A stretch of DNA of 64,000 nucleotides, taken from assembly GCA_963930775.1 (NCBI GenBank), contig OZ005690.1:4386225-4450224 (forward strand), written 5' to 3'. Source of the DNA: Cliona cf. orientalis (lineage: Eukaryota; Porifera; Demospongiae; Clionaida; Clionaidae). This document shows, one piece after another, positions 4,462 through 63,116 of the stretch; within the stretch, counting starts at the first letter, position 1, and every line of letters begins with the position of its first letter. The position numbers were made by a program, and so were the translations under genes. The notes beneath the pieces were generated by a model. The model did not search any database. It was not told the origin of the DNA and saw only the letters and a program-made list of their open reading frames with translations.

Positions 4462-4485
4462 AAATTAGAGTTCTCTAGAGCCAAA

Positions 4486-4593
4486 AACCCTATTACAAGA
4501 ATATTGGCGGATTTTAATTTGGCGGTTGTAATATATACCGCCAAACTGACAAATTTAATTCCCTGCCAAATTTTCCGGGTATACGGTAATTCA
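4486..4593 (-). mobile_element. MITE fragment (GGCGG family)
   Basis: One half of the element found complete at 14935-15156. It shares TATTGGCGGATTTTAATTTG and the terminus TTTTCCGGGTATACGGTA. The other terminus is missing. It lies just upstream of copy A of the nuclease gene. Confidence 0.7.
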
Positions 4594-5574
4594 TTAAATG
4601 CAGTATATGTCATTTTTGAAATGTTACTGACATGATGCGGAATACGCTAGGTTCCGTAATGGTTCCTTAGGCATTGGAATTTTGTTTACAATTTCCTGGT
4701 GCCATGTAGGTAAACAACACATCCCATAGCAATGTGTATTATGTACATCTTAAATTGTTAATTTACACACGTGCACATCATGTAGTCTCCTTGTTAAGGT
4801 CCTATAGATTTTTTTAACATTAGTTCGCTGTTTTTGCAAGGGCACGTACATAGGTATACGTTGTACATTATTCCCTGAATACCATCAAGTATGCGTGTGG
4901 AAAAGGTAATACTAGTGTGTCAGAACAAGCCTCTTGAGAAATTTATACGCTTTTTTATGCATTTTAGTACATCGTGCATTATATTGTATTGCACAATAAA
5001 AAATTTTTGCCTTTATGCGGTATAAATTTATGCAATTGGCACTTAGTTAGCATAAAGATAACTCGTACAGAAAAAAATCTCTTTACAGTAATTTGAGACA
5101 ATAGTACGATTGTAAAAGTCTATATTACTAACCTGAATTTTGAATAGTTGCAGAATTATGATCGTCACAGTTACACTTGTATCTCTGCTTTTCAGTGTTT
5201 TGCGTTCCAGCTTTATAGTTAGAGTGAATGATGTACGGGGAAGTCCCAGGGGAACTCCCAAACTTTTCATTCGCATATACACTATCGATTGTACTCATGG
5301 AAGTGTATCTGCTATAGTGTCTCATATTACCAGGCCTTTTCCTTCAGTGTACTCGATTCATGTACAGTTTCATAATCTAGATCTTAAGATTCCTACAGTA
5401 GTGGTCAATAAAAAGTTAACGTTCAGTTCCATTGTACGATTGTTATGAGGTGAGAACGTTTCCGTTTTCACACCGTTCCGCCGTACGGGGAAGCATGCAC
5501 ACGCGCGCATCCATTGTTTTTACATTCGTGCAAACGCTTAATTGGTAGGCGTGACCGTACTGCAATAATTGACA
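4594..5574. other. No recognisable feature
   Basis: AT-rich DNA with short open frames on both strands that overlap each other and show no family resemblance or splice context. I see nothing to support a gene. Confidence 0.5.
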
Positions 5575-23472: not shown

Positions 23473-26400
23473 ATGGCAAAGGAACCAGAAAGAAAATCGT
23501 ATGAGCCTGCAGCAAGAGGAGGTCACATATCGTTTTCCATCAAAGGAAAGTTGTACACATGGGGTGGAGTGACACATGACAATGATGAGTCTAGCATGAT
23601 ACTAGCAAATAATATTGACCAATTCGACCCTTACATTGAAGTGTGGAGTCGTCTCAATACGGAAGGATCGCCACACCCAGGACGAAATGGCGCTGCCAGT
23701 GCACTGCTTGGAGAACAGCTGTACACATATGGAGGATCTCAGGATGTTGGAAAGGACATGTACGCGGGTGTCCTCAGCTATCTGGATCTCGACACACTCA
23801 CGTGGTCATTGGTCAGCCCGACTGGAATTGAAGGGGCACCAATGAAAAAGACCGGATGTGGTATGGTACATCTCAGTCAAGACAAGCTAGCAGTGATAGG
23901 TGGGTATGGGATTCCCACAGACCCCACACAGCCGCAAGTTGGATCAACATTTATCAAGCACACCAGATTCACTGACGGAAGGGGGTGGACAAATGAAATT
24001 CACTTGTTTGACCTCAATCAAGGTGATCATAGTCATACTTTATAGATTCTGATATTTATACACACTTCGTGACGATTCTGTGGAGCTGTCTAATCCATGG
24101 CCACAGATAGAAATGTCCTGAAGTGTTGTAAGTTTATGCAGCCAAGTTAATAAGTCTACTATAGCAATAAGCCTGTACAGTCTAGATATCAGGGCTGTTG
24201 ATCAGAGGAATCAAACAGAAAATTGACATCTGAGCATTGACATTTATCAATTTTGATTACGAAATTAATGCAGGCATTTGGTCCTCCCCGAATCTTGAAG
24301 GAACCAGTCTTCCTCCGTGTGCGTATTTCTCATTGACGAGTATCGATCACAACCAAGCTCTCTTCTTCGGAGGAAATCAACCTGGACATGGCCGAATAAA
24401 CGACCTCTATCTCATTGACTTTGATAACATGGTTGGTATGGTAGCTACATGTGCAATTATGTTTATGTTGCCACAAATTGGGAGCCAGGAATTCTCTCCA
24501 CTAACATTTAATATTAATGGGAGTTGTAGTCTCCACTTTAAATTTGTGCAGTTCATGATGACTGTACAGCTTAGCTATAGATGTCCAATATTACGGTGGC
24601 CGAGAGAGACACACACGCACTATGATTCGACCTTAAGTGATTCGACCGTAATTCATGCCACTGTAAGCGATTCGATCCTAAGCGATTCAACCTTAAGCGA
24701 TTCGTTGGTAAGCGATTCAACCTTAAACGATTCGCTGGACCAGGTAAGCGATTCAACCTTAAGCGATTCGCTGGTAAGCGATTCGTTGGTAAGCGATTCA
24801 ACCTTAAGCGATTCGCTGGTAAGCGATTCAACCTTAAGCGAGACCTTAAGCGATTCGCTGGTAAGCGATTCAACCTTAAGCGATTCGTTGGTAAGCGATT
24901 CAACCTTAAGCGATTCGCTGGTAAGCGATTCAACCTTAAGCGATTCGCTGGTAAGCGATTCGTTCACGGTAAGCGATTCAACCTTAAGCGATTCGTTGGT
25001 AAACGATTCGTCACTAAGCGATTCTTTGGTAAGCTACCCACCGCTTCTACCTTCATTATTGCGTTAAAACATCAGCCATACCTCTTCTTTGCTAGTTATC
25101 CCGCGCGCGCATACGCAGCAAGGTGTGAAGCAATCGGGTTTATCTGTCGTCAACACGAAAATCGCCAGATGTGATGATCTAGGCATGTGAGTGAGTCATA
25201 AGCACAGGGAATCCGTAGGAATCGTCGAATAATTGGCTGAGCCTCCATTATGCCTCTAATTGTTTGATGAAGCCCACGAACGTCGTAAATACTGTGTTTT
25301 ATGGCCACGCCTATCAACCATACCCAACATCAGGCCATGTACGCAAAACTATTTTGCATATGTAGGTAAAGATCGTCAATAGGCGATCTGCAGCTACAGA
25401 TGCAGCCATCAGCACGCGGGTACACTGTAAACAGAGCTCTAGTTATTTGGGCGGTTCCAGGAACGAATCCGCCGTTTAATATAATATTATAGCTTACAGT
25501 CAAATTGCCTGCGGTGGAATTGCTTTCCAAAGAAAATCGCTATACGGTTAATAAATCGCTTATCAGTCGCAAAGCTTATCAAAGAGTCGCTTACGAAGAA
25601 ATCGAATTGCTTAAAGATGAATATTTAGCCTACCAATGAATCGCGTAGGATTGAAATCGTTGCCCAATGAATGGCCTATGGTCGAATCGCGTACCAACGA
25701 ATCGCCTAGGGTCGAATCGCTTACCAACAAGTCGAATCGCGATCGCGTACTTACCAACGAATCGCTTAAGGCTGAATCACTTAGTATCGAATCGCTTACC
25801 AACGAATGGCTTAAGATTGAATCGCTTAAGGTTGAATCGCTTACCAACGAATCGCTTACCAACGAATCGCTTACCAGCGAATCGCTTAAGGTTGAATCGC
25901 TTACCAACGAATCGCTTAAGGTTGAATCGCTTACCAACGAATCGCTTAAGGTTGAATCGCTTACCAACGAATCGCTTACCAGCGAATCGCTTAAGGTTGA
26001 ATCGCTTACCAACGAATCGCTTAAGGTTGAATCGCTTAGGATCGAATCGCTTACAGTGGCATGAATTGAATCACTTAAGGTCGAATCATAGTGCGTGTGT
26101 GTCTCTAATATAGAACACGAAGTGCACCTTTATGGCATAGATAATATATTGTAGTAGCTAGCAAGCTACTCAAGTAGGCTGGACATAGCTATCAACATTA
26201 CTTAATAAGTATCGTAACTACTTTTTTACATACTATTAGGACATTACCAGAATAGAATGTCGTATAAAACTGATCCATGGCCATCAGAGAGAAGTGCCCA
26301 TGCAGCTTGCTGTGTCGGACATGCTGGCCACACAGGCTATTTGCTGATAACTGGTGGAAGAGATAGAAATGACAAGGCACTGAACGATATGTGGCTGTTT

Positions 26401-39900: not shown

Positions 39901-42900
39901 AGCTCCAATACTTTCCCTAGTGATCCTCTTTTCACTTTCTGCCCTTTCAGCATTCCCTTCCCATAGAGCTGGAAGACTTTCTCCACTAGAGAAAACACCT
40001 CATTCAGCAGAGAGGCCAAGAAAAACACGCAGGCATCATCCAGAGCAGTCACCTATTGGTACACACATCATTCAACATAATTTTGATAAAGAAGTACTAT
40101 AATTCTTTACCTCATCCATCAACAGTCCGGCACAATAGCCTCTCCAACTCTTTGGCTTCTCTGGTGTTGGCTCAGTCAAGGGTGTGTTTGTTACTTTAAA
40201 GAGAGAGTTACGGCAGAATTGTATCTATGTAGGGCGTATGAGAAACACAACTTCATCAATGTTCTCTAGGTTGAAGAAGCTAGAGATGCAATGACATACC
40301 TTCTCCCAGTGACTCATACTGTGTTGAAGAGATGTGGCATTGTTATGTTTAGAAGCCAACCTGTATGCTTCCTCATTGCTTAGACCAGAATACACTGAAA
40401 CCAGCCGAGTCCTAAAGGCAGCGGGAGGGTTCTCCAGTTCTTCACATAGAGCCTGGAGTGCTGCTCGAGAGTGATTTCCTCCAAGGGTCTCATACAGGTA
40501 CGTTTCCTTCTTTGACTCATCAAAACTCTCACCTGAATGAAGCATAATAATTATAGTCATTATTAATTATGTCAAACCAATTGCAAGTAACTGAGTTGAC
40601 ATATTGTACAGAAAGGTTATAAGGCTTATTGACGAATTTTGCTCAAATACACCAGCCGAAGTGAAAGTTTGATAATACAAACGTTTCGGCAGCTATACAA
40701 CTGCCATCATCAGTGCAATAGACAGATACAGTGGCATATATACAATTATATGAAATCCTAAAAATGAGTAAACTAAAAAACAAGCATGCATTGACATCAT
40801 AATTCACTCAAAACATGTCAATGAAAGAAGAATAAACAACACTATTGAAGTCCGAGAATGCTATAATTGTAATCAGCAGAGACCCAACATCCCTGTTAAG
40901 AGTAGTTCCGATTGTTCTGGTTTTAATGTAAGATGAGATTGAAGTAATGGACCTCATGGCTAATAACATTGCAACAGTAAATCAATCTATCATACCTTCA
41001 TCCAAGACTACTAAGCCCACTATTGGAGCTGCATTGATCGAAGGGGGGAGCCTTCATCGCCTTCTTTAACTCCTCGACCCGACCATCTTTGGCAGTCCTC
41101 AGCAAGCGATCTGAGTGAGGCTCTACCAGACAGCTGATTGGAAGTGTGTAGTAGCCTATGAAACATAATGTCATAGTGAGTTAATGTAATATTATATTGA
41201 GTAATTTGTTTAGTCTGATGGTTCAATGAATGACAGGCAAAAGTAGCTACATACCGATGAACGAGCGTAAAATAGCATCATCTAGTTCCTTCTCCTTCTC
41301 CTGGACAGAGGCTTGTGATCCTGGAGTTGTTGTCAATGCTCTCTTTGTCACTTTGATGGGCCTGATATTTGGTGTCTTCTCTACCAGAGGCCTCTTACTG
41401 AATGTACAATCATGTATGCATGGAAGTATTCAAGTATTAAAGTCAACTATTGACATACCCAAACAATTGATGCTATATAATTATATACTTAGACTAGACT
41501 TATAGTCCGGAGTGGTTTAGCCTTGGTACAATCATGTAAACTGCCCAGCTGTAGTATAACTGTGCAGTTATACCATGGGTAACTTAGCGATTACATATAG
41601 GGTACAAGCCACTAAGACCATAGCTATAGCCTGTCTACCATATACACAATAGTAACAGTTGCTGAACTTGAAACGTCCTGATGTTGTATGTATTAACTGT
41701 GTCTATCTGCTCAAGAAGATAATATTATGATTGTTGAAACGCAACATACCGAGTGTTTGAGCTTGGTGTTACACAGGGAGTGGTTTGTGAGAGGGGAGTT
41801 TGATTCAGAGAGGGCGGGGGTGATTGGAAGGAAGAGGAAAGAGACTGATCAGCCGAGCTCTGGCTGTCCAGTTCATCTGAATCTCCAAAAACGGTGGATG
41901 CAATGCCAGTGTCTGGATCCAAGGTTGGTGAGATGTACTTAGACCACACTCTTGCCACGTCTTCTTCACTTCTCGCACCTCTGGTGTGAAAGTATCTGGA
42001 TATCCTAGAAGCAGTGAAGTTAAATCCCTTTACAGTGAACCCTTTCGATTTTCCATCACTGAATTGGATCTAAAGTATGAAATGTAGAGAACAAAATTAA
42101 TATTCTAACACGCTGTCATAGTGTCACATGACCCCTCTAAAGTTGTCCCCCCCCCCCCCCCCCCCGGGACACTATATAGTGCAGTATGTCCCCAGGTATG
42201 TATTGCACCAGAGTAGGGTGTCTCCTTGGGACATTGGACACTAGAACCACTTGTCCTTTCTTAAAGAATAATCTGATGGCATGCTCCCACAGGAGAATTT
42301 GACATTTTTAACCCTCATGCAGCAAGTGCTTATGAGAGTAGTTTAAATGTGATGGAATACAAAAGTATACTTAGCTATATTCTAGCCTTGTAGCTACCCA
42401 GGCCTTTCTCCTTCTCTTGAAGGGCCTAGGTACGAGGCTAATAGCCGCTTAGCTTTGCAGGGCTGGCTCACGCCCCCCCCCCCCCGCAACATTTCTCCGT
42501 GTGGGGACGTGTAACACTGGAGAGGACATTCTACTCTAGGGCTACACATGTCTGGGGGGACACATGGCTCTGGTGTAGAATGTCTAGGGGGACACTGTAC
42601 TCGGGGGGGGGGGGGGGGGGGGCAGGCAGCACTCCGACAACGCTACCTAAGAAAGAAGTATATACATACAGATATAAGGCCAAAACCTAACTATAATGCA
42701 TGATTTTGAGGTGTCAAAATCCCGTCTTGGACTTCAAACTTGAATCAAACATTAACTTTGTAATTGACAGGAATAGATAACACTCTTAATCATTGTTTAA
42801 CTGATGCATGCTTTAGCAAAAGGCTGAAACTATATAGATAAAACAGATCTGTATTTAAAAACCCACTCGAAGAACGGTCTTGTCACCTTTCGCACAGCAC

Positions 42901-44648: not shown

Positions 44649-45239
44649 CATTCTATACTCCGTATATTCGTATATTTTATCAGTATACTAGCTTACCACA
44701 TGATCTTGAGACGAGTACCCGCGCGAATTACCGCGAAAAGGCAGCTGCTGCAAGCTGCTATACTAGCGCTAGGAACCGTGAAGTTGGCAGCTACTACACA
44801 CTGAAGTCCATCTGGAGGCTCTCATGTCAATATCTGGAAGGACTGGTGTGCTCATAGGCGTTCTACGTGTTCATCATTTACCGAGTGGCCTATTCATCTT
44901 TATTGCACAGCCACAAGAGCTCAAGTTGACAACCACTGGCTGAGCAGATTTGTGTTGGAGGCACGTAAGAGCAGCGGTGATCCTTACAGCTACTCCAGAT
45001 ACCCTTTACAACATTTGTGCTGGATTATTCAATTTGCGGTATATTCGAGAGCCAAGACCAGAAATAAACATCTTTAAGGATTCCAACTACGCTAATTTTC
45101 AGAGGACTTTGGATGGAGAGATGAAGCGATTGCGTGCTTTAGGCCTTGGTGTAAGAAAAGACAAGCTGAACCTATATATCATTGTTAAGGAAGAAAACAA
45201 GCTGAGATCCGGAATATTTTTTTTCCGGATTCTGTAAAA

Positions 45240-45830
45240 ATTTACACTTTAATGAACCGAGGGTGGCTTAGGATCTAAGCCACCCTCGGCTTAGGATCTA
45301 AGCCAACCTCCGCTTAGCTTAGAATCTAAGCCAGTACCATCAGCTTAGGATCTAAGCCACCCTCCGCTTAGGATCTAAGCCAACCTCCGCTTAGCTTAGA
45401 ATCTAAGCCAGTACCATCAGCTTAGAGTCTAAGCCACCCTCCGCTTAGGATCTAAGCCAACCTCCGCTTAGCTTAGAATCTAAGCCACCCTCCGCTTAGG
45501 ATCTAAGCCAACCTCCGCTTAGCTTAGAATCTAAGCCAGTGCCATCAGCTTAGGATCTAAGCCAACCTCCGCTTAGCTTAGCCAGTACCATCAGCTTAGG
45601 ATCTAAGCCACTAGTATCTAAGCCACCCTCCGCTTAGGATCTAAGCCACTAATACCTAAGACAACCTTGGCTTAGAATCTAAGCCAACCTCAGCTGCTTA
45701 GGATCTAAGCCACTAGTATCTAAGACAACCTCAGCTTAGGATCTAAGCCATTCTCAGCTTAGCATTTAAGCCAGTTCCATCAGCTTAGGGTCTAAGCCAG
45801 TCATGACTTGGGAATTACAGCTGAGGATCT
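45240..45830. repeat. GCTTAGGATCTAAGC minisatellite, left arm of FB-G
   Basis: Units of about 23 bp (GCTTAGGATCTAAGCCACCC and variants with CAACCTCC or AGTACCATCA) repeat more than 20 times. Each unit contains its own palindrome. Confidence 0.95.
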
Positions 45831-46309
45831 AAGTCACCCCCAATGTTGGCACAATAGCTTGCCTTATAATTAAGCCACAAACTACTTGAGCATAACCACT
45901 AGCCTACTTGAGATACAAACCACGTGACGTGGTCAGCAGCTCATCACCAAGACCATTAATTAAAGTATGTACCTCAGTGTACCTGAGCACTATTGTTACA
46001 TTGTATGCTGTTGACTTCTATGCAGGGATTTTTTTTGTTCATTTGCATTTACTATAATGTATTTTCAAGTTATGTTATGAACATACACCTATTTTGGTGA
46101 ATTTTAATAAAATCCCTTTTCTTGAAATCAGTCAATTGGCAATGCATGATGATACAATAGGGGACAATTATGATAACTACCATAATAATATTAAAACTTG
46201 CAAGATTTAGTGTGTTGAATGATGCTAATCAATAACTAGGAATAAATCCAGTGCTTATTGAATCTGTTCAATGTACACATATAGATGAGGATTTTGAGTG
46301 TAACTATTT

Positions 46310-49300
46310 CGGTATAGTACACATCTTGCAGCATTCTTGGTCTCATTTGTACACCCCACACTTTTTAGGTACCAAACCCATATCAGTACATTTGTTCTTG
46401 TGTCTATAACCATAGTCTAGAGTGGTGTAAACAGTAGGCATGGCATTGGTGACTTCTGTGTGTGTGAGGATGAGCATTTGTATATACTTCAATGTTATTG
46501 TACACATCTTGTAGCTTTCTTGGTCTAATTTGTACACCCCACACTTTCTAGGTACCAAAGCCATACCAGTACATTTGTTCCTGTGTCTGTAACCATAATC
46601 TAGAGTGGTGTAAACAGTGGGCATGGCATTGGTGACTTTTGAGTGTGTGAGGATGAGCATTTGTATATACTTCAATGTTATTGTACACATCTTGTAGCTT
46701 TCTTGGTCTAATTTGTACACCCCACACTTTCTAGGTACCAAAGCCATACCAGTACATTTGTTCCTGTGTCTGTAACCATAATCTAGAGTGGTGTAAACAG
46801 TGGGCATGGCATTGGTGACTTTTGAGTGTGTGAGGATGAGCATTTTGTGTATACTTCATGTCAATCGATACTGTACACATTTTGTAGCTTTTGGTCTCAT
46901 TTGTACACCCAACAGTTTCTGGGCACCAATATCAAATCAGTACCTTTCTTCTTGTGTCTATAACCATAATCTAGAGTGGTGTAAACAGTGGACATGGTAT
47001 TGGTGACTTCTGCGTGTGTGCATTCTGAGAATTTTCCATGCAATCATCTACATGTATACATAGTACACATTTCGAAGCATTTTAGCTCTCAATTCTTCAC
47101 ATAGCATCCCTTAAGTTCCAAACTTGATCAGCACCCTTATCTTGATGTTAGCAATCATACTTCTGAGTTACATTGACTGGCGATGTGGTTGAGGCATGTT
47201 CTGTGCATGTGAGTATGAGAATATCTTGTGCACATGCATTCACAGTAATCGGTACAATTATTATTGCTTTTTAGCTCTCAATTTCACATACTACATCTCT
47301 GGAGTGCCAGACTTGATCAGTATCTTTATTTTGATGTCTTTTATCATAACCTAGAGTGGTGTAAACAGTAGGCATGGCATTGGTGACTTTTGAGTGTATG
47401 AGGATGAACATTTTGTGTGTACTTCAAGTTAATCGATACTGTACACATCTAGTAGCTTTTTTGGTTTTATTTGTACACCCCACACTTTCCAAGTATCAAA
47501 ACCAGATCAGTACCTTTATTTTGATGTCTATATTCATAATCTATAGTGGTGTAAACAGTGGACATGGTATTGGTGACTTCTGTGTTTGTGAGGATGAGCA
47601 TTATTTTAGTGTGTACTTCATGTCAATTGATGCTGTACACATCTTCTAGCTTTTTTGGTCTGATTTGTACACCCCACACTTTCCTAGTATCAAAACCAGA
47701 CCACTACCTTTATTTTGATGTCTATATTCATAATCTATAGTGGTGTAAACATTGGACATGGTATTGGTGACTTCTGTGTGTGTGAGGATGAGCATTTTGT
47801 GTGTACTTCATGTCAATCGATACCGTACACATCTTGTAGCTTTTTTGGTTTTATTTGTACACCCCACACTTTCCTAGAATCAAAACCAGATCAGTACCTT
47901 TATTTTGATGTCTATATTCATAATCTATAGTGGTGTAAACATTGGACATGGTATTGGTGACTTCTGTGTGTGTGAAGATGAGCATTTTGTGTGTACTTCA
48001 TGTCAATCGATGCCGTACACATCTTGTAGCTTTTATGGTCAAATTTGTACACCCCACACTTTCCTAGTATCAAAACCAGACCAGTATCTTTATTTTGATG
48101 TCTATAACCATAATCTAGAGTGGTGTAAACAGTGGACATGGTATTGGTGACTTCTGTGTTTGTGAGGATGAGCATTATTTTAGTGTGTACTTCATGTCAA
48201 TCGATGCCGTACACATCTTGTAGCTTTTTTGGTCAAATTTGTACACCCCACACTTTCCTAGTACCAAAACCAGACCAGTACCTTTATTTTGATGTCTATA
48301 TTCATAATCTATAGTGGTGTAAACAGTGGACATGGTATTGGTGACTTCTGTGTGTGTGAGGATGAGCATTATTAATTTTTAGTGTGTACTTCATGTCAAT
48401 CAATGCTGTACACATCTTGTAGCTTTTTTGGTCTAATTTGTACACCCCACACTTTCCAAGTATCAAAACCAGACCAGTACCTTTATTTTGATGTCTATAT
48501 TCATAATCTATAGTGGTGTAAACAGTGGACATGGTATTGGTGACTTCTGTGTGTGTGAGGATGAGCATTATTAATTTTTAGTGTGTACTTCATGTCAATC
48601 GATGCTGTACACATCTTGTAGCTTTTTTGGTCTAATTTGTACACCCCACACTTTCCAAGTATCAAAACCAGACCACTACCTTTATTTTGATGTCTATATT
48701 TATAATCTATAGTGGTGTAAACATTGGACATGGTATTGGTGACTTCTGTGTGTGTGAGGATGAGCATTTTGTGTGTACTTCATGTCAATCGATACCGTAC
48801 ACATCTTGTAGCTTTTTTGGTCAAATTTGTACACCCCACACTTTCCTAGTATCAAAACCAGACCAGTACCTTTATTTTGATGTCTATATTCATAATCTAT
48901 AGTGGTGTAAACAGTGGAAATGGTATTGGTGATTTCTGTGTGTGTGTATTCTAAGTTTCCATATTATGTGCATACATCAGTAATTGGTACAATTTTCAAA
49001 GCTTTTAAGCTCTAAGATCTTCACACATCATCTCTGAAGTTCCAAATTTGATCAGCACCTTTGTCTTGATGTTAAAAATCATATTTCTGAGTTTAGTCAA
49101 CTGGCGATGTGGTTGAGACATGTTCTGTACATGTGAGTATGAGAATTTCCTGTGTACCTGCATGCATTCACAGTAATAGGTCCGATTTTCACAGCATTTC
49201 AGCTCTAATATCTTAATATAACATTCCTGAAGTTCCAAACTTGGTGAGTACCATTGATTTGATGTTAATAATCATATTTCTGACTTTCGTTAACTAGCGA

Positions 49301-50845
49301 TGTGGTTGAAGCATGTTATGCACATGTGAGTATGAGAATTACCTATAGCACATGCATGCATTCACAGTTACTGTAATCGATGCAATTTTAGTAGCTTTTT
49401 AGCTCTCAATTCCACATACAACATCTCTGGAGTACCAGACTTGATCAGTACCTTTGTTCTTGTGTCTATAACCTTAATCTAGAATGGTGTAAACAGTGGA
49501 CATGACATTGGTGACTTACTCTGCGTGTGTATTCTAAGAATTTTCCATGTGTGTACACACATTCACAGTAACCAAGGTACAATTAACCTTCATAGCTTTT
49601 TAGCTTCACATATCATCTATAAATATCCAAACTTGAACAGTACCTTTATCTTCATGTCAACAATCATATTTCTGAGTTTCGTGAACTGGCGATGTGGTTG
49701 ATGATTGTTCTGTACATCTGAGTATGAGAATATCCTGTTCACATGCATTCACGGTACTCGGTACAATTTTTATAGCTTTTTAGCTCTCAATTCCACATAC
49801 AACATCTCTGGAGTACTAGACTTGATCAGTATCTTTATTTTGATGTCTATAACCATAATCTAGAGTGGTGTAAACAGTAGGCATGTCATTGGTGACTTTT
49901 GAGTGTGTGAGGAAGAGCATTTTGTGTGTACTTCATATCAATTGGTACTGTACACATCTTGTAGGTTTCTTGGTCTCGTTTGTACACTCCATACTTTCTA
50001 GGTACTAGAACCATACCAGTACCTTTATTCTTATGTCTATAACCATAATCTAGAGTGGTGTAAACAGTGGACATGACATTGGTGACTTCTGTGTGTGTGA
50101 GGATTAGCATTTTGTGTGTACTTCATATTAATCGATACTGTGCACATATCTTGTAGCTTTCTTGGTCACACTTGTACACCCCACACTTTCTAGGTACCAA
50201 AACCATACCAGTACAGTTGTTCTTGTGTCTATAACCTTAATCTTGAATGGTGTAAACAGTGGACATGACATTGGTGACTTACTCTGCGTGTGTATATTCT
50301 AAGAATTTTCCAGGTGTGTACACACATTCACAGTAACCAAGGTACAATTAATCTTCATAGCTTTTTAGCTCTTAATTCTTCACATATCATCTATAAATTT
50401 CCAAACTTGAACAGTACCTTTATCTTCATGTCAACAATCATATTTCTGAGTTTCGTGAACTGGCGATGTGGTTGATGATTGTTCTGTACATGTGAGTATG
50501 AGAATATCCTGTTCACATGCATTCACGGTACTCGGTACAATTTTTATAGCTTTTTAGCTCTCAATTCCACATACAACATCTCTGGAGTGCCAGACTTGAT
50601 CAGTATCTTTATTTTGATGTCTATAACCATAATCTAGAGTGGTGTAAACAGTGGACATGGTATTGGTGACTTCTGTGTGTGTGAGGATGAGCATTTAGTG
50701 TGTACTTCATGTCAATCGATACTGTACACATCTTGTAGCTTTTTTGGTCTAATTTGTACACCCCATACTTTCTAGGTACCAAAACCTGACCAGTACCTTC
50801 GTTTTTATGTCTGTATTCATAATCTAAAGTGGTGTAAACAGTAGT
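46310..50845. repeat. Tandem array, unit about 190 bp, left arm of FB-G
   Basis: About 23 units at 185-200 bp spacing, marked by TGTACACATCTTGTAGCTTT, TTTGTACACCCCACACTTTC, ATAATCTAGAGTGGTGTAAA and TGTGAGGATGAGCAT. At least two unit types alternate: the standard one and one with CACATGTGAGTATGAGAAT and GGCGATGTGGTTGA. Long frames across it merely follow the period. Confidence 0.9.
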
Positions 50846-51684
50846 CAAAAGGAAAGATGGTTTATGTATGAGAATTCTAATCAATGGAGAATTTTATTGT
50901 CAGTATGTTACGAGATAGGAAACACAAGCAACCTCATACAACTCAAAATCAAATTAATAAATCTTTGAACCTTAAATTATAATACGTGTATTATTATAAT
51001 ATGGTAGGTCCAGCGTTAAATCATACACTATTGTGATTGAGCATCTATACATTATGTGGTTTTACTAGTGTGTACTTCACCTAATTGTATAAGGCACTTG
51101 AACTACACCATGTGTGTGCATCAATGTGTACTCTGTGGTGACCACAATATCATAATCATAGTATTAAGAGGGGCATATGCTCTGTGGAATTATGAAGTAC
51201 TGCACAGAGGAAAACTACTACCAATCACTAGCTCAGTACCACCATACATGCTATTATTATGGCTGGTTCATTTTCCCTATCACTTACTTCTTAGTATGCC
51301 TACCTTTTGGTTACATGTAGGTGTTAATTAGAGGGCATTGATCGTTTACATGATCATGTAAATATGTATACATGTGTATATGTACACATGTAGTGTATCT
51401 ATAGACAGAATTACATGTGCATGTGCACAGCACATGCCATGTAATATACATGCATATGATATGAGTGTGAAAGTAAGGTATGTGTGTACATGTACATACC
51501 TTAAATCAAACCCAAACCTAACCCAAAGCCAACCCAAACCCAACCCAAACCCAAACCCACTCACGTCACACACACACACAAACACACTCACACACACGTG
51601 CACGCACTTCATAGCTTAATTGGAAATTAACATCCTCTCTCACAGCCTATTTAACACAACATGTGAGCACATACAGAGGTAAAG
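50846..51684. other. Central spacer of FB-G
   Basis: The midpoint of the element, once the CACTG insertion is removed, falls at about 51323, inside this spacer. It contains a CCCAAACC-rich tract (51508-51560), a CA run and ACATGTGTATATGTACACAT-type simple sequence. No gene is recognisable. Confidence 0.6.
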
Positions 51685-52735
51685 TAAAAATGTGGCGTGT
51701 ACAAATGAGACTAAGAAAGCTACAATGATAATATTATGTGTACAGTACCGATTAATAATATTATATGAAGTACACACAAAATACTCATCCTCACACACAC
51801 AGAAGTCACCAATGCCATGTCTACTGTTTACACCACTCTAGACTATGGTTATAGACATAACACCAAAGTTACTGATCAAGTCTGGTGCTCCAGAGATGTT
51901 GTATGTGGAACTGACACCTAAAAAGCTATAAAAATTGTACTAATTATACTGTGAATGCATGTGTACAGGAAACTCTCATACTCACATGTGCAGAACATGC
52001 CTCAACCACATCGCCAGTCAATGAAACTCAGAAATAATAAGATGATTAACATTAAAATAAAGATACTGATCAAGTTTGGAACTTCAGGGATGTTGTGTGA
52101 AGAATTGAGAGCTAAAGAGCTACAAAAATATTGTAGGATTACTGTGAATGTGTGTACACATGGAAAATTCTTAGAATACATACACACAGAAGTCACCAAT
52201 GTCATGTCCACTGTTTACACCACTCTAGATTATGAATATAGACACAAGAATAAAGGTACTGGTATTGCGTTGGTACCTAAAAAGTGTGGGGTGTACAAAT
52301 GAGACCATAAGAAAGCTACAAGATTTGTACATGTACATGCAGTATCGATTGATATGAAGTACACACAAAATGCTCATCCTCTCACACACAGAAGTAACCA
52401 ATACAATGTCTACTGTTTATACCACCCTAGATTATGAATATAGACATCAAAATAAAGTTACTTGTATGGTTTAAATGCTTAAAAAGTATGGGGTGCACAA
52501 ATGAGACCAAGAGAGCTACAAGATGTGTATAGTATCGATTAATATGAAGTACACACAAAATGCTCATCCTCACACACACAGAAGTCACCAATATCATGTC
52601 CACTGTTTACACCACCCTAGATTATGGTTATAGACACAAGAACAAAGGTACTGATCAAGTCTGGTACTCCAGAGATGTTGTATGTGGAATTGAGAGCTAA
52701 AAAGCTACTAAAATTGCATCGATTACAGTAACTGT
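51685..52735. repeat. Tandem array, inner portion of right arm of FB-G
   Basis: The same approximately 190-bp unit as at 46310-50845, now inverted (GTGTACAAATGAGACCAAGA, ACAGAAGTCACCAATGCCAT, TTTACACCACTCTAGATTAT). It is interrupted at 52735 by the CACTG element and resumes at 56766. Confidence 0.9.
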
Positions 52736-53104
52736 CACTGGACAAAAAGTGAAATTTCCTGCACTACAGAAAACGTACAGTGGATGTCCAAGTGAAGTTT
52801 CCTGTACATTTTTTGTACATGCACTCATGAAGTATACTGCACAGTTCCTTAGGCTAGTGGGGAGTGAAATTTCCTGTACGTTTTTTGTACATGCACTCAT
52901 GAAGTATACTGCACAGTTTCTTAGGCTAGTGGATAGATCATGTGTCATTCATATTCTGTGTACACATGAAACTTGATGTCTTGTGTTATCTGTGCTGGTG
53001 GATACATGAAGTGTCACTAACATTTCATTCACACATTCTCCCAATATAATATAATTATGATGCAAGAAGTGGTTGGGCCAGCTCTCTACTCATACAAGGC
53101 TACC

Positions 53105-53480
53105 TACTGAATGATGAGACATCTCAGTGCCACAGCTCTCTGGCTGGGCTCATCGTTGCCCCCACAAGCTCCCTTCTCACCCAAGGCTACGATGGAACAT
53201 CTTGACAGGCTGCTGCCGAAAGATGAGACATCTTGACAGCTCTCTGGCTGGGCTCATCGTTACCCCCAAAAGCCAGAGTCTCTTCTCACACAAGGCTACC
53301 TGCCGAAAGATGAGACATCTTGACAGGCTGCTGCCGAAAGATGAGACATCTTGACAGCTCTCTGGATGGGCTCATCGTTGCCCCTCTCTTCTCACACAAG
53401 GCTACCTGCCGAAAGATGGGACATCTTGACAGGCTGCTGCCGAAAGATGAGACATCTTGACAGCTCTCTTCTTGTCTCAT
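53105..53480. repeat. Minisatellite inside the CACTG element
   Basis: Units with GAAAGATGAGACATCTTGAC, AGCTCTCTGGCTGGGCTCAT and TCTCACACAAGGCTACCTGC repeat with period variants. AGATGAGACATCTTGACAG carries a small palindrome. Confidence 0.85.
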
Positions 53481-54636
53481 TTAAAACTCTCACTCACTCA
53501 TGCAATCTCTCTGGCCCTCTTCATCTTGCATGATATGGGCGGAGTCCAAGCATGGGCCCTAACGATCACGTGACATGCATGTACCATTCATTTCAAATTG
53601 TGCTGATGCAGCGCTTAGTCTCGTCCTAGATGAAGCTGTATCCCGCTGGCACTGTGACAAGCCTCCAGATCGACATGCAAAAGCAAAATGTGAGAAATGT
53701 GGTATACTGTAATAACTGGCAAGATCTACGTAATTATTTTTAATACCTTTATACACAGGATGATGGTGTGTCACTGACTCAGGCTGCCACCGTTTTTGTG
53801 ACAGTATTATGAGCTATCATGAGTGAGGCCATACCAATTTGATGTTTTGTTTCTCGGACAAACAGGAGCTGGAAACAGACCAGGGTGGTCGGCATGAAAA
53901 TAAAAAAAAACTAATTAACAGGAGGTGTGGCCTAGTATTAGTAAATCGTGAGCATCACCAGTCCACAGACGGCCAGCTATCATTTTTGTAGTGAAACCTT
54001 GCATTCTAGAGCAGTTTTGATGATCGTTTAGCTTACAGCACTATCAGTAGCAGACTAAGAGTGTTCTTTCTAGTGAGTACTCCTGGCCTATCACTATTAT
54101 AATGTGAGGAATGTTAATTAAAAAAATTTTATTTTTTTTTTAATCAGCCAAAAACAGACCCGCCGAATCCGAGAAACAAAAAATTAACTTGGTATGGCCT
54201 GACTTGAAAGCAATTAGGCCTCAGTTATTATCTGGTAAGTTGATAGAATAACTATAAAACAGTTTAAACCATACAAAATAATTTGCCAGGTGAACCAGTG
54301 AGCCCGGCTGTGCTGTGTGGTGTTAGTAGCCTGGATGTTTGGAGCTATTCAGTACCAGACGGTTGCTTTGAGGTACATGTGGCTTTACATCAAAGTTATA
54401 TAATTGGTAAGTTCATAATGTTACATGTGAGGCTATTGAACTTTATTTTTGGAAAATTGTACCATGTACAAAATATAGCTGCCTATAGAGCAACCGTGCG
54501 TGATGTCATCACCCAATACAAATCACTTCTGCATGGCAAACTGTCACGGTACGAATGTGTGCCATACTTAAGCCATAACTCTCCCAGAATTACTGAATGT
54601 GTACAATGTATGCCACAGATTAATGTACTGACCTTG
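53481..54636. other. Internal region of the CACTG element
   Basis: A plus-strand frame near 53575-53720 (LSLVLDEAVSRWHCD and KCEKCGIL) and another at 54283-54640 (PAVLCGVSSLDVWSYSVPDG) are open but match no transposase I recognise. They may be captured or decayed coding sequence. Confidence 0.35.
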
Positions 54637-56340
54637 TATGGCATTCCAATACTGACAAAATTGGCAAGCTCAAAATGTATGGTCAAACTTGAGTCAGATA
54701 TATGGTCAAACTCAAATATGTGGTCAAAATTGTTGTCTATATGGTCAAAAGCCAAATATATGGTCAAATTTTATATGATCAAACTCAAATACATGGTCAA
54801 ACGAAAGTTATGGTCATTTTTCCCATATATGGTCAAACATGCAGCAAATATATGGTCAAAATTCAAGAAAATCCCCTTCATAATAGTCACGGATATGACG
54901 TATCTATTAGTTAATTGGACCGACGTGACGTCAACAGAATCCGCGTTTGCGAATAAAATTCGCGATCCGGCGCGCGCACAAACGTACACTCACGATCCTT
55001 ACCTTATGTAGTCTGAGACTCGTTCATAGACCCGCCCCCTTTAGGGCGGAGTCTAGGGACTTGATCATTTCGCTCCGCTCCTACGTGGGAAGGCTGGTGC
55101 GCGAGACTAGGTACAATCGGACATTGTATTGTATGGTATTAAAGCAGTATGGTAAGCATGAATGAAACTACTAGCTATTCATGTACTATAATAATATATA
55201 TCCTTCTGCACCTGGTGTGTCTTACCTTCGTCTCAAAACCAGATCGCTCCCACCGCAGCGTTCAGTTCTTTCAGGATGAACGCGCGTTCATCCTGAACGC
55301 TGCGGTGGGAGCGGTCTGGTTTCGAGACTAGTGTTACCTGGCTGGGCTAGCCTTATCCCCAGGCCCTCTCTCGATCTCCCAGTATTTATTATGAAAGATA
55401 GAGAGAGGGCCTGGGGGACAGCTCAGCTAATTTCATTCATACTTACCTTACAATGTCCTATTTTACCTAGTCTCGCGCGCCAGCCCTACGAAGAAGGGAT
55501 TGTAGCGGAGCGAGATGGCCAAGTCGCCAGACTCCGCCCCAGAGGGGGCGGGTCCGTGAACGTAGTCTCGTCCCCAGACCCCACCCTCGAGGAGGAAAAG
55601 GGTCTGGTGAACTTGGGCTGAATCCTCGGTTCTCCGTTCTACGGCGCATGCGCATATGTGCCGACAAGGCCATGCAAAGCTTGGTTCTGATTGGTCGCTA
55701 TGGCTGCGTTTGCATGTGATCGCATGCCCGCAACCGGCAGTAAAACAAACCTTGAATCTGATTGGTCGGCGAAATTGAATAGCTATACAGACGGTATAGC
55801 GATGTTGCATTCCTGCGGTAAGCTTGTCATATGACTGAGCCAAAGCTACGATCTCATTGGCGCGTGGAAATTCCTCAGCGCAGGCCCAAGGATTCTGCCC
55901 AAGTTCACCAGACCCTTTTCCTCCTCGAGGGTGGGGTCTGGGGACGAGACTACCGTGAACGATACTACATAGCGGGTAAAGGATCGTTTGTGCGCGCGAT
56001 CGCGAATTTTATTCGCGAACGCGGATTCTGGCTGTGATTCTGTTGACGTCACGTCGGTCCAATTAACTAATAGATACGTCATATCCGTGACTATTATGTA
56101 AGGGGATCTTCTTGAATTTTGATCATATATTTGCTTCATGTTTGACCATATATGGGAAAAATGACCATAACTTTCGTTTGATCATGTATTTGAGTTTGAT
56201 CATATAAAATTTGACCATATATTTGGCTTTTGACCATATAGACAACAATTTTGACCACATATTTGAGTTTGACCATATATCTGACTCAAGTTTGACCATA
56301 CATTTGAGCTTGCCAATTTTGTCAGTGTTGGAATGCCATA
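54637..56340. mobile_element. Foldback element FB-3 (ATGGTCAAA arms)
   Basis: Begins TATGGCATTCCAATACTGAC and ends with the complement GTGTTGGAATGCCATA. GACCTTG flanks both sides (54630-54636 and 56341-56347), a 7-8 bp target duplication. The left arm (54660-54880) is a minisatellite of ATATATGGTCAAA units; the right arm (56110-56310) is TTTGACCATATAT units. Inside the arms are longer matching blocks (GGACCGACGTGACGTCAACA, GCGAATAAAATTCGCGA). The centre is filled by other hairpin repeats. Confidence 0.85.
55030..55960. repeat. Nested hairpin repeats in the centre of FB-3
   Basis: GGAGTCTAGGGACTTG...GCGAGACTAGG at 55065-55110 is mirrored by CCTAGTCTCGCGCGCCAGCC at about 55466. A strong hairpin at 55235-55330 has CGCTCCCACCGCAGCGTTCA against TGAACGCTGCGGTGGGAGCG. 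AGACCCCACCCTCGAGGAGG near 55580 is inverted near 55920. Several MITEs have inserted in one another. Confidence 0.75.
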
Positions 56341-56765
56341 GACCTTGTGTGTATTTATTTCTCAATACAGAGTGACCAGAAGCTACCAGAAGCTATGTGA
56401 ACTCGATATGTAACTAAAGGTTGAACATATTTAGTAACTGTGTACATAATATGACTGTACTATAGTGTTGCTTTATAGTGTATGTATGCTGTATTTTTGT
56501 AGTGTGTTGTCATTTGTTGAAAACTATTGATTTCATGCATTTTTTCGTCAGGATACCTGATATGTCCTTAAATATTTCCTACAGTATGATAATTCATAAA
56601 TCCTCTGGTACATGATCTGTGTAGGAAATTCAGCCCTATCCTCTACCTGAGACGCTACCTAAAATGTGTAGTTTCCTATAGTATGGATAAGTGAAAGGGA
56701 CATCATGTGCCCTTCATGTTTTGTATACAAAAACTGTGTTAGGAAATCTCTCTCTTAGTCCAGTG

Positions 56766-59700
56766 TGTGAATGCATGCATGTGCTATAGGTAATTCTCAT
56801 ACTCACATGTGCATAACATGCTTCAACCACATCGCTAGTTAACGAAAGTCAGAAATATGATTATTAACATCAAATCAATGGTACTCACCAAGTTTGGAAC
56901 TTCAGGAATGTTATATTAAGATACCGTAGAAACTGGTTGTTAAGCGCATGCGCTTATAACACGCGGCAGCAAGAAAATATGCGCTTAATAAAAAGTATGC
57001 GCTTAACAGGAAGCATGCGCTTAATTAAAAGTGCTAAAACACGGTAGGTGGGGCATGCGTAAAGAACGTGTCGAGGATAGAAAGGCCTACAACGGCGGCC
57101 AAGAAGCGACCAGAGAGCGTAATTCTCGACGTTTTCTTCTCCAGCCTACTTCTAGCCTTCTTTCTGGGCTCATGTAATCGATCGCTCGTGGTTCAGCTGG
57201 CTTGCTGGGCATATGCGCCTAACAAAGAGCGGTAAAGCTCGCACAAAACTATGAGCTTAATAAAAAGTATGCGCTTAACAGAGAGCAGCGCTTAACAACC
57301 AGTTTCTACGGTATTAGAGCTGAAATGCTGTGAAAATCGGACCTATTACTGTGAATGCATGCAGGTACACAGGAAATTCTCATACTCACATGTACAGAAC
57401 ATGTCTCAACCACATCGCCAGATGACTAAACTCAGAAATATGATTTTTAACATCAAGACAAAGGTGCTGATCAAATTTGGAACTTCAGAGATGATGTGTG
57501 AAGATCTTAGAGCTTAAAAGCTTTGAAAATTGTACCAAATACTGATGTATGCACATAATATGGAAACTTAGAATACACACGCAGAGTAAGTCACCAATAC
57601 CATGCCCACTGTTTACACCACTATAGATTATGAATATAGACATCAAAATAAAGGTACTGATCTGGTTTTGATACTAGGAAAGTGTGGGGTGTACAAATAA
57701 AACCAAAAAAGCTACAAGATGTGTACGGTATCGATTGACATGAAGTACACACAAAATGCTCATCCTCACACACACAGAAGTCACCAATACCATGTCCACT
57801 GTTTACACCACTATAGATTATGAATATAGACATCAAAATAAAGGTAGTGGTCTGGTTTTGATACTAGGAAAGTGTGGGGTGTACAAATTAGACCAAAAAA
57901 GCTAGAAGATGTGTACAGCATCAATTGACATGAAGTACACACTAAAATAATGCTCATCCTCACAAACACAGAAGTCACCAATACCATGTCCACTGTTTAC
58001 ACCACTATAGATTATGAATATAGACATCAAAATAAAGGTACTGATCTGGTTTTGATACTTGGAAAGTGTGGGGTGTACAAATAAAACCAAAAAAGCTACT
58101 AGATGTGTACAGTATTGATTAACTGAAGTACACACAAAATGTTCATCCTCACACACTCAAAAGTCACCAATGCCATGCCTACTGTTTACACCACTCTAGG
58201 TTATGATAAAAGACATCAAAATAAAGATACTGATCAAGTCTGGCACTCCAGAGATGTTGTATGTGGAATTGAGAGCTAAAAAGCGTTAAAAATTGTACCG
58301 ATTACTGTGATTGCATGTGCACAGGATATTCTCATACTCACATGTACAGAACATACCTCAATCACATCGCGAGTCAACGAAACTCACAAGTATGATTGTT
58401 AACATCAAGACAAAGGTACTGTTCAAGTTTGAAGTTTAGAGATGATGTTGAAAGAATTAAGAGCTAAAAAGCTATGAAAGTTGTATTTTGGTTACTGTGA
58501 ATGTGTGTACACACAATGTCATGGAAAATTCTTAGAATACACATGCAGAGTAAGTCACCAATATCATATACACTGTTTACACCATTCTAGATTAAGGTTA
58601 TAGACACAAGAACAACTGTACTGGTATGGTTCTAGTACCTAGAAAGTGTGGAGTGTACAAACGAGACCAAGAAAGCTACAAGATATGCACAGTACCGATT
58701 GACATGAAGTACACACAAAATACTCATCCTCACACACTCAAAAGTCACTAATGTACCATGTCCACTGTTTACACCATTCTAGATTAAGGTTATAGACACA
58801 AGAACAAATGTACTGATCAAGTCTTATACTCCAGAGATGTTGTATGTGGAATTGAGAGCTAAAAAGCTACTAAAATTGCATCGATTACAGTAACTGTGAA
58901 TGCATGCATGTGCTATAGGTAATTCTCATACTCACATATGCAGAACATTCCTCAACCACATCGCCAGTCGACGAAACTTAGAAATATGATTGTTAACATT
59001 GAGATAGAGTTACTGATCAAATTTGGAACTTCTGGGATGTCGTGTGAAGAATTTAGAGCTCAAAAGCAAGAAATGTGTATAATATATACGTACTACATGT
59101 AGCTGATTGCATAGAAAATTCTTAGAATACATACAAAGAAGTCACCAGTACCATGTCCACTGTTTACACCACTCTAGATTATGAATATAGACACAAGAAC
59201 AAAAGTACTGGTCTGACCTTGGCACTTAGAAAGTGTGGAGTGTACAAATGAGGCCAAGAAAGCTACGAGATGCATGTGTACAGTATCGATTAACATGAAG
59301 TACACATAAAATGCTCATCCTCACACACACAGAAGTCACCAATACCATGTCCACTGTTTACACCACTCTAGATTATGAATATAGACACAAAAACAAATGT
59401 ACTGATCTGATTTTGGTACCTAGAAAAAGTAGGGTGTACAAATGAGACCAAGAAAGCTACAAGATGTGTACGGTATCGAATGAAGTATGTACACAAATGC
59501 TCATCCTCACACACACAGAAGTCACCAATGTCATGTCCACTGTTTACACCACTCTAGATTAAGGTTATAGACACAAGAATAAATGTACTGGTATGGTTTT
59601 GGTACCTAGAAAGTGTGGGGTGTACAAGTGAAACCAAAGAGCTACAATATGTGTACATGTAGTACCGATTAATATGAAGTAGTATACACACAAAATGCTC

Positions 59701-60240
59701 ATCCTCACACACACAGAAGTCACCAATACCATGTCCACTGTTTACACCACTCTAGATTATAATTATAGACACAAGAACAAAGCTACTGGTCAAGTCTTGT
59801 ACTCCAGAGATGTTGTATGTGGAATTGAGAGCTAAAAAACTATGAAAATTTTACCGAATAATATACATACATGTGCACATGAATTCTCATACTTGCATGT
59901 GCAGAACATGCTTCAACCACATCGCCAGTCAATGAAACTTAGAATTATGATTGTTAACATCAAGACAAAGGTACTGTTCAAGTTTGGAACTTCAGAGATC
60001 ATGTGTGAAGAATTGAGGGCTAAAAAGCTATAAAAATTGTACCGATTACTGTGAATGTACGTATATGTACGTACATAGAAATTTAGAATACACAGACACA
60101 GAAGTCACCAATGCCATGTCTACTGTTTACACCACTCTAGATTATATGAATATAGACACAAAAACAAAGGTACTGGTCTAATTTTGTTACCTAGGAAGTG
60201 TTGGGTGTATAAATGAGACCAAAAAGTTACCATAACAAAG
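56766..60240. repeat. Tandem array, outer portion of right arm of FB-G
   Basis: The inverted approximately 190-bp array resumes after the CACTG element with GAATGCATGCATGTGCTATA and continues to about 60240. A short insertion at about 56925-57310 (ACCGTAGAAACTGGTTGTTA and its complement TAACAACCAGTTTCTACGGT, with GCGCTTAA blocks) is itself a TIR-bounded MITE. Confidence 0.85.
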
Positions 60241-60539
60241 GTGTGTACTAGCTGTACTGGACTGATTTTAAGAAAGGGGATTTAAAACGTACCAAAATAT
60301 GTGTATGTTTAATACAACATAACTTGAAAATATTTAATATTATCATAATAAATGCAAATGAACAAAAAAAATGGATTGAAACAAGATGATTTGTGACAAA
60401 ATTGTCTCACAAACACGAATAATAATAGTTTAATGGCCTTGGTGGTGAGCTGCTGACCACGTGGCTTGTATCTCAAGTATGCAAAGTGGTTATGCTCAAG
60501 TAGTTTGTGGCTTATAAGGTAAGCTATTGTGCCAACATC

Positions 60540-61432
60540 AGTGGCGGCTTAGATCCTAAGCTGTAATTCCTACTCAAAGGATCTGAGCCACTCTCCACTT
60601 ACATGTAGCGCTATTCTGAGCTTAAAATCTAAGCCAGAGCCATCAGCTTAGGATCTAAGCCAACCTCGGCTTAGGATCTAAGCCACCATCAAGCCAGCGC
60701 CATAAATAGGATCTAAGTTACCCTCTGCTTAGGATCTAAGCCAATCATGATTTAATTCTAAGCAGAGGTTGGTTTAGATTCTACGCTGAGGGTGGCTTAG
60801 ATCCTAAGCTGATGGCACTGGCTTAGATTCTAAGCTGAAAATGGCTAAGCGGATTGAGAGTGGCTTAGATCCTAAGCGGAGGGTGGCTTAGATCCTAAGC
60901 TGATGGTACTGGCTTAGATTCTAAGCTAAGCGAAGGTTGGCTTAGATCCTAAGCGGAGGGTGGCTTAGATCCTAAGCTGATGGTACTGGCTTAGATTCTA
61001 AGCTAAGCGGAGGTTGGCTTAGATCCTAAGCTGATGGCACTGGCTTAGATTCTAAGCTGAAAATGGCTAAGCGGAGAGTGGCTTAGATCCTAAGCCAAGT
61101 GTGGCTTAGATCCTAAGCAGAGGTTGGCTTAGATCCTAAGCGGAGGGTGGCTTAGATTCTAAGCTGATGGTACTGGCTTAGATTCTAAGCTAAGCGGAGG
61201 TTGGCTTAGATCCTAAGCTGATGGTACTGGCTTAGATTCTAAGCTAAGCAGAGATTGGCTTAGATCCTAAGCTGATGGTACTGGCTTAGATTCTAAGCTA
61301 AGCGCAGGTTGGCTTAGATCCTAAGCGGAGGGTGGCTTAGATCCTAAGCGGAGCGTGGCTTAGATCCTAAGCTGATGGTACTGGCTTAGATCCTAAGCCG
61401 AGGGTGGCTTAGATCCTAAGCCACCCTCGGTT
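60540..61432. repeat. GCTTAGGATCTAAGC minisatellite, right arm of FB-G
   Basis: Inverted counterpart of 45240-45830, longer (about 0.87 kb), with units such as GGCTTAGATCCTAAGCGGAG and GGTACTGGCTTAGATTCTAA. Confidence 0.95.
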
Positions 61433-63116
61433 CTTTAAAGTTACAGAATCCGGAAAAAAAATATTCCGGATCTTAAATGGATACTGTTCTGTGGGAAAAA
61501 AGGGTCCTGGGTGAAAGTGATCCATAAACCTTGCTTGACACTGTCCTGTTTCTTTGTGGAATTCATTTCGCTCTCCGCAGTGGTCAAGAGCATCGAAGTC
61601 TTTAACTGTCACAGTTTGAGCTTCAGACAGATGAAGATGGATCTTCGTTTCTCCTTTACACCGAAAACACATCAAAAAACTAGAGCTCTGTAGAGCACAT
61701 ACCCCGCGCGCACATTGTGCAATCTATGCCATTGCTTTTGCCAGCCCGGTGTGCATGCATGGCTATTTTGTGAACTTCAGAAAATTAGTTGAAGTGCTGC
61801 AGCTACCAGAGGTCCCAGTGACAAAAAGCACTCTTTCTGCACCAGATCTAGACTACTAGGAGATATGAACTAATACTTTCAATATTTGTTTTTGTGATAG
61901 TATAGCCATGGCATAGGGCTGCAGATTTCAGCTCCCTCAGCGGATGCGGATGGACTATAGATTTTACGAGCATTATTAATTTCGACGATCTTTACCAGTA
62001 ATATTCTTGGCTATTTTAGTAATAGTTGTGCGCATGAGCAGAAAATACAATGGGCATGCATTATGCATTGACGAGGCACTGTCGATAGGCGTGGCTACGT
62101 TAGCCAACAAAAAGGCACTATTTGTGTCGCCCGTGGACCGTATCCATCGATTTGACGCACACCGAAGCTAGTTTTTCGCCGAATTCCGGATTGATTCGTT
62201 GTGCTTACGAGTCGCTTAGATGCCTATATCTCGAGATATGGCGATTTTTGTGCTCACGACGACAACAACGACACAACCGATTACTTTACCCCTTGCGCAT
62301 GCGCGCGGGGTAATAACCAGGGAGCTAGGGCTTTCAAGCTCATCGTAAACAAGATAGCTACACCTGATAGATTAGAACCAGGCAACGCTGTGGGTTAGAT
62401 TTATTCTCATAGCATGCAACACTCTTGGACTTTAGCTGAAGTATATCGTCCAGCTGATCATGATGATATCGTCTACCTGACACTCCTAAAGAGGTCTAAA
62501 GGTGATACGTGGTACTCAAAGGTGCCAATAGGACACAATATGCTGTCCAAAATGGTCTCTCATCTATGCAGTGATGCAGGGATCTTGGGATTCAAGACCA
62601 ACCATTCTCTTCGAGTGACCTCTGCAACTCGTCTCTTCCACAGTGGAGCTGATAAACAGCTAATAATGTCTCATACAAGACATAGAAGTGTAGATGGTGT
62701 TCGCACCTACAAGCGGGAGAGTCAAGAACAGAAAAGGTCACTATCTAACGTACTGAATGCTGCGTCAAATGGACAGCCTACGAAGAAGCCCAAACTTGAT
62801 CTGATAGACACAGAAAAGAGGGGACATGCAGTCGATCAACCACTTCAACACTCAACATGCATGCAAGTACACACACTGCTACTGCCACTGCAGTCAGCTT
62901 CAACTTTACAGGCTGCTCTTCCATCACTATCAACTATGTAAATTAAGGAATGACTTAATTATTATCATTCAAGTACTTTCCTTACTCAGATACTGTACAG
63001 GTCTTTGGATCAGTACTTGTTTGCTTTATTCAGTTATTGTAGTATCACATAATATGATACCCTATTGTTCATGTGTCATGCAGATTCCTGAGCATTAATT
63101 TTCATTGTGCTGCTTG

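Follow-up and report, generated by a model that had tools for sequence, protein, structure and literature searches.

The window analysed here, a stretch of 64,000 nucleotides of the sponge Cliona cf. orientalis (C2:4386225-4450224 of the 217-Mb genome), holds one copy of a family of foldback elements that numbers some twenty copies in this genome, the window copy included. This copy lies within a tyrosine-recombinase gene, which we take to be Crypton/ZMYM-like, and consists of two inverted arms around a central spacer, with two other elements nested in the right arm (Table 1). It was compared with itself on the minus strand by BLAST for inverted matches, and searched for tandem arrays with Tandem Repeats Finder (TRF). 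Inverted matches make up 73% of the copy, nested insertions counted in; apart from the spacer, the stretches lacking an inverted match are the nested insertions, a 150-base piece (46134-46283), and a piece adjoining the CACTG element. The arms measure 5.64 and about 5.76 kb and enclose a unique spacer, as an earlier note on this DNA had claimed; these lengths hold with the CACTG insertion removed. The spacer is 82-100% identical to its matches of substantial length elsewhere in the genome. The same note described the arms as built of tandem repeats, and TRF finds arrays of a 23-bp palindromic type near both ends and arrays of ~190-bp units further in. Its statement that no transposase lies inside also agrees with our data: of two open reading frames (ORFs) of at least 150 amino acids neither was recognised as a transposase, one being the reading frame of the array (46343-46843, not searched against Pfam) and the other, in the nested CACTG element, giving no Pfam match. 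An Rfam search of the window gave no match.

Table 1. Features of the foldback copy and of the gene it interrupts (positions in the window)
Feature	Position	Strand	Basis or remark
Foldback copy as it stands	45205..61488	.	~16,300 bases; left tip short by 15 bases; extent of tip and of duplication (4 bp) taken from other copies
Left 32-mer, inner part of tip	45206..45237	+	Inverted identity with right 32-mer
Right 32-mer, inner part of tip	61441..61472	-	Inverted identity with left 32-mer
Outermost 16 bases of right tip, AACAGTATCCATTTAA read inward	61473..61488	-	Comparison with tips of other copies
Inferred target duplication CTGT, right copy	61489..61492	+	Supported by paralogues
Left subterminal array, palindromic GGCTTAG(G/A)ATCTAAGCC sites (predicted transposase-binding)	45267..45802	+	TRF, site count
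Right subterminal array, palindromic GGCTTAG(G/A)ATCTAAGCC sites (predicted transposase-binding)	60619..61421	-	TRF, site count
Left arm, ~190-bp tandem array	46317..50842	+	TRF, self-BLAST
Central spacer, no gene found	50848..51684	+	Self-BLAST; genome matches
Right arm, ~190-bp array broken by two nested elements	51685..60230	-	TRF, self-BLAST
Nested CACTG...CAGTG element, 4030 bp, TGT on both sides	52736..56765	.	Ends read
Nested miniature inverted-repeat transposable element in right arm, termini CCGTAGAAACTGGTTG, TA on both sides	56924..57311	.	Ends read
Tyrosine-recombinase gene, left piece	45106..45204	+	Joined-flank translation and paralogues
Tyrosine-recombinase gene, right piece, one in-frame stop	61492..61602	+	Joined-flank translation and paralogues
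ORF with phage-integrase domain PF00589, likely 3' part of interrupted gene	62414..62941	+	Pfam

The ends of the element lie further out than first described. The inverted 32-mers, taken earlier for perfect ends, are indeed identical, but they form the inner block of a longer tip, and the true ends differ from one another; positions 45206 and 61472 are rejected as element ends because the tip runs 16 bases further in other copies. These outer 16 bases are present at 30 of the 32 distinct ends read, the two ends without the full set being the left end of the window copy and C10:1849789. At the former only the final A is retained, at 45205, directly after CTG (45202-45204), the remnant of the left target duplication, as if 16 bases (a T and 15 bases of the tip) had been lost there after insertion. 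Since its left tip is reduced to this last A, the window copy is probably immobile at present. When its flanks are joined with a single CTGT the recombinase frame is restored (EENKLWEKRVLGESDP, with one stop after it), and the 70 residues encoded across the join (X at the stop) match uninterrupted paralogues in the genome over the whole length, the best of them at 70% identity within a 551-codon open frame. Several top matches are shorter by one codon, which we tentatively attribute to a frameshift upstream of the junction.

A genome search with the 32-mer, proposed earlier as a means of counting copies, returned 52 matches at up to three mismatches, 45 of them exact, and none for the reversed-pattern control. 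A 21-mer across the outer tip gave 73 matches, 49 of them exact, with four in the control; at least seven of its three-mismatch matches belong to an unrelated repeat resembling long interspersed elements (LINE-like), and the tip-like repeat AACATTATCCACTTCAGATCC (seven places, three read) was rejected as such a poly-A-ended, LINE-like repeat. Allowing one mismatch per tip, 18 facing tip pairs were found, each on one contig and 7.7-32.9 kb apart. Two further copies, the window copy and C6:2436775-2447688, have one imperfect end, and the remaining tips listed have no partner within the list. Eleven copies other than that of the window were retrieved in full, and for two more (C7 and C1:35562654) the flanks were retrieved. 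Each of the 11 has complete tips at its two ends and a duplication of exactly 4 bp, none longer (GGAG, TGTT, GGAG, TTAT, TATA, GTGT, CAAA, TAAA, TACA, ATAG, and TTTA); together with CTTT at C7 and CATG at C1:35562654, a 4-bp target duplication is present in 13 of the 13 copies for which both flanks are available. The dispersed copies, the facing tips, these duplications, and the match to the empty site bear out the earlier claim of a transposable foldback, and the outcome that the note named as refuting it, a genome devoid of further copies, did not occur. Defined tips and a duplication of constant length place the family among the DNA transposons of the terminal-inverted-repeat order, and the long, inverted, tandem-repeat arms around a middle domain make it a foldback.

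Inverted matches cover 79-98% of the sequence in ten of the 11 whole copies and 62% in the eleventh (L053+L054), because of a nested transposon; ten of the 11 have no open frame of 150 codons or more, and the eleventh holds a nested transposon. The spacer is found over most of its length at 97-99.8% identity in six copies and at 91% in L041, in two pieces (95-98%) in L045 and L055, and over 134 bases in L043; L049 gave no spacer match. Genome-wide, some spacer copies are merely 82-89% identical. The 13-base palindrome CTTAG-RAT-CTAAG (counted with its reverse) has 31-52 occurrences in each of the 11 copies, none of them further than 1 kb from an end; the window copy has 44, and the rest of the window none (first-order Markov expectation, 0.0). 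The ~190-bp unit has at least 320 matches (33 of 109 candidates scored); all those listed fall at loci with a known tip, and to that extent the unit is restricted to this family. The tip is nearly invariant whereas the array units differ by roughly 5-25%, a pattern that would fit selection on a recognition site. One copy, L041+L042 (C2:5379843-5391033), has two arms with a mutual identity of ~96-97% across long stretches, and both of its tips are of the same variant; in the nine other copies compared, the two ends differ by diagnostic bases. Arm copying is a possible explanation.

The copy at C7:3837500-3854362 carries genes. It is 16.86 kb long, with the duplication CTTT and arms of 6.26 and 4.70 kb, and in place of the 0.84-kb spacer has a core of 5.9 kb (C7:3843763-3849666). 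By the Repbase rule (PMC4455052), elements of one family agree in duplication length and in their first 11 terminal bases; on both counts C7 and the window copy (by its right tip only) are one family. The core holds two divergent genes, both predicted models free of stops and with all introns GT-AG: gene A, running leftward, with 10 exons and 698 amino acids, and gene B, running rightward, with 7 exons and 513 amino acids. The product of A has the Pfam domain DUF7869, which also occurs in molluscs, echinoderms, amphioxus, a cnidarian, and numerous metagenomes. Structure prediction for a homologue of A gives the RNase-H fold of DDE transposases, with the three acidic residues that go with this fold in DDE/D enzymes; in the structure model of a shorter homologue the first acidic strand was absent and no useful match was obtained. 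For B, a protein-database search gave no match among 7992 scored candidates, nor did a PDB sequence search with its first 414 residues. Two homologues of A and part of B found no match in NCBIfam. Sequence common to the C7 core and the non-coding copies amounts to one 84-bp stretch of about 77% identity. The core DNA recurs at length in one other copy, C1:23568928-23580075 (90-94% identity), where part of the core is joined to an arm: the junction is collinear with that of C7 except for a gap of ~53 bp, an exact tip stands at C1:23566504, and family arm sequence extends across 1.5 kb inside that tip. In this second copy B is split by ~9.4 kb, and A was not found.

Genes A and B keep company elsewhere in the genome. 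One exon of B defined 23 B loci, and the matches of A were collapsed by hand to 45 loci; at 18 of the 23 B loci a divergent A locus lies within 25 kb (0.24 expected). The five without A nearby are C1:23579036, C1:2316151, C2:4426557 (in the window), C1:33866244, and C6:4462514. The B locus at C1:23579036 is 92% identical to that of C7, and the other A/B loci are about 24-49% identical, so that the pairing looks old. For one A/B pair away from C7, 2 kb read on each outer side gave further exons and no arms or tip. The window's own B locus consists of gene-B-like fragments (39915-40551, minus strand; 43% identity over 72 amino acids, plus a second exon) 5 kb to the left of the foldback; no gene A was detected in the window. 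An uninterrupted DUF7869 frame of 699 codons occurs with equal score at C12:1152992, C12:3968539, C10:3522912, C14:6120648, and C14:7343719. These five loci apparently are a separate, recently spread lineage; none of the B loci listed is near them.

Other coding regions inside family copies were considered as the engine. That on C5 was rejected as nested, since it has inverted ends of its own and a 4-bp duplication, ACTG: the insert (L053:5102-9658; C5:2179686-2184242) is 4.56 kb long, with ends CACGGGTGTTTCA, and its ORF matches the RAG1 importin-binding domain of Pfam (E 1.2e-8) and, below the cut-off, a RING-like finger. We presume that it resembles the N-RAG-TP type. The C9 coding region was rejected likewise, as the spacer is kept there and the insert sits in an arm (L073:4334-7000 and L075:1-1450; C9:3965833-3969948). 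It has a 782-codon open frame, of which a 518-codon part gives a weak match to the RAG1 recombinase (PF12940, E 2.9e-4, below the cut-off); at its borders, inspection by eye suggests an 8-bp repeat, ATTGACAT, and there is no inverted 10-mer. The locus C1:35562654-35595550 has 32.9 kb between family tips, with a diverged A/B pair and nested insertions; its left arm is broken after ~110 bp by sequence that we assume to be hAT gene-like, and a common repeat precedes its A gene. It is a possible further autonomous copy.

From these data we favour, with a probability of about two in three, the reading that the window copy is a non-coding, slightly truncated foldback that was probably mobilised in trans through cut-and-paste transposition, with 4-bp duplications, by the DUF7869 protein (a predicted DDE transposase) encoded with its partner B in the core of at least one larger copy, that at C7. 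The transposase would bind both the tip and the palindromic sites, which lie solely in the outermost 1 kb of the arms, bring the two ends together, cut the element out, and reinsert it with a stagger of 4 bp. Gene-bearing and non-coding copies alike would be mobilised by A, perhaps with B; this appears to be the most economical account. The inner ~190-bp arrays, being non-coding, may be free to grow and shrink when tandem repeats slip or exchange unequally. The window copy would have entered the tyrosine-recombinase gene at CTGT and later lost 16 bases at its left end. The mobilising enzyme, given earlier as unknown, thus has a candidate in a gene-bearing copy, although its binding, its catalysis of the movement, and the role of B are what we infer. 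More tentatively, at somewhat less than even odds, DUF7869 proteins and the divergent partner B could be the machinery of an undescribed superfamily of cut-and-paste transposons with 4-bp duplications, of which the foldbacks would be a giant parasite lineage with dozens of palindromic binding sites at their ends.

The A/B pair of C7 might instead be a passenger or a degenerate nested transposon, the engine being an unlinked transposase with the same end preference, of the Sola type for example. Several observations point that way and weigh against our preferred reading: nested coding elements do occur in other copies (C5 and C9), this core DNA is found at length in just two copies, and A/B pairs lie at many loci with no family tip nearby. 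The borders of the C7 core show no shared inverted 10-mer within about 300 bp and no duplication was seen, but this test is weak because the C9 insert, too, shows no ends by it. Against a passenger, the C7 core replaces a spacer that is missing, whereas C9 keeps its spacer and has its insert in an arm; no duplication was seen at the borders of the core, a second copy has a collinear junction of arm and core, and B lies time and again beside a DDE-type gene. On balance we hold a passenger to be unlikely. A segmental inverted duplication or an assembly artefact, which a single window could not exclude, is refuted by the dispersed copies, which share their tips but not their flanks and have duplications of exactly 4 bp, and we give it practically no weight.

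An ordinary foldback of Mutator type (FB/Tetris-like) or P type (Galileo-like) would explain the array-built arms and the overall plan, which are alike (PMC4079207, PMC3573991, PMC3169594). The duplications stated in the excerpts of these papers are, however, 8-10 bp for Tetris, 7 bp for Galileo, and commonly 9 bp for Tm1, as against 4 bp in 13 of 13 copies here, so that membership is excluded and this explanation is very improbable. Neither the 8-10 bp of Mutator/FB nor the 7 bp of the P superfamily (PMC3573991) was seen. The earlier note regarded such elements as little described in animals, a view that the literature does not support: foldbacks of Drosophila melanogaster, sea urchin, and Chironomus are named alongside a description of Tetris (PMC4079207), and Galileo (PMC3573991) and Tm1 (PMC3169594) are further cases. 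As excerpted, Tetris of Drosophila virilis is similar in being apparently non-autonomous, with arms of tandem ~220-bp repeats around a middle domain, and its authors could not find a transposase; its arms reach at most 1,735 bp, compared to around 5 kb here, where a gene-bearing copy exists (PMC4079207). Galileo shares long, internally repetitive arms, variation in tandem repeats, and secondary transposase sites proposed in the arm repeats, but has arms of up to about 1.26 kb and a P-type transposase (PMC3573991). Tm1 of root-knot nematodes (Mutator/Foldback) has composite array arms and both non-coding and transposase-bearing members; it differs by its 13-15-bp arm repeats and is Mutator-type by title (PMC3169594). 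The arms of our family, ~5 kb, are longer than the arm lengths stated for these three in the excerpts.

Array-armed foldbacks are thus already known in animals, and what is new is the 4-bp duplication and the enzyme candidate. CACTA/EnSpm elements have CACTR tips and duplications of 2-3 bp, unlike the family tip, AACAGTATCC, and its 4 bp. The TTAA-specific duplication of piggyBac/Kolobok (PMC9587614, in excerpt) is found in 0 of 13 copies. The main known family that could contain the foldbacks is Sola, which has the same duplication length, some members over 15 kb, and an acidic-triad transposase; as described, it differs in having inverted repeats 11-1124 bp long and a triad of DDD type (here the third acid may be E or D), and neither a partner gene B nor array arms appear in the part of that description at hand (PMC10741241). 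The domain of our candidate is named in Pfam simply DUF7869, and a literature search, subscription papers being outside its scope, gave no mention of it. The proposed engine is directly testable, since one genome offers non-coding copies, a gene-bearing copy whose predicted reading frames are open, the full tip, and the duplication length. If true, our reading would give DUF7869 a function and show how array arms of some five kilobases can stay mobile.

The window has further repeats of its own. Within the nested CACTG element, inverted ATATGGTCAAA arrays occupy 54665-54872 and 56176-56312, and more inverted stretches lie near 55000-55950. An unrelated second inverted pair of tandem arrays is situated at 24605-26106, with units of 15, 30, and 45 bp and arms ~75-92% identical. 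Two related ORFs on the minus strand, 3915-4613 and 10638-11189, have C-terminal halves that are nearly alike, a local duplication.
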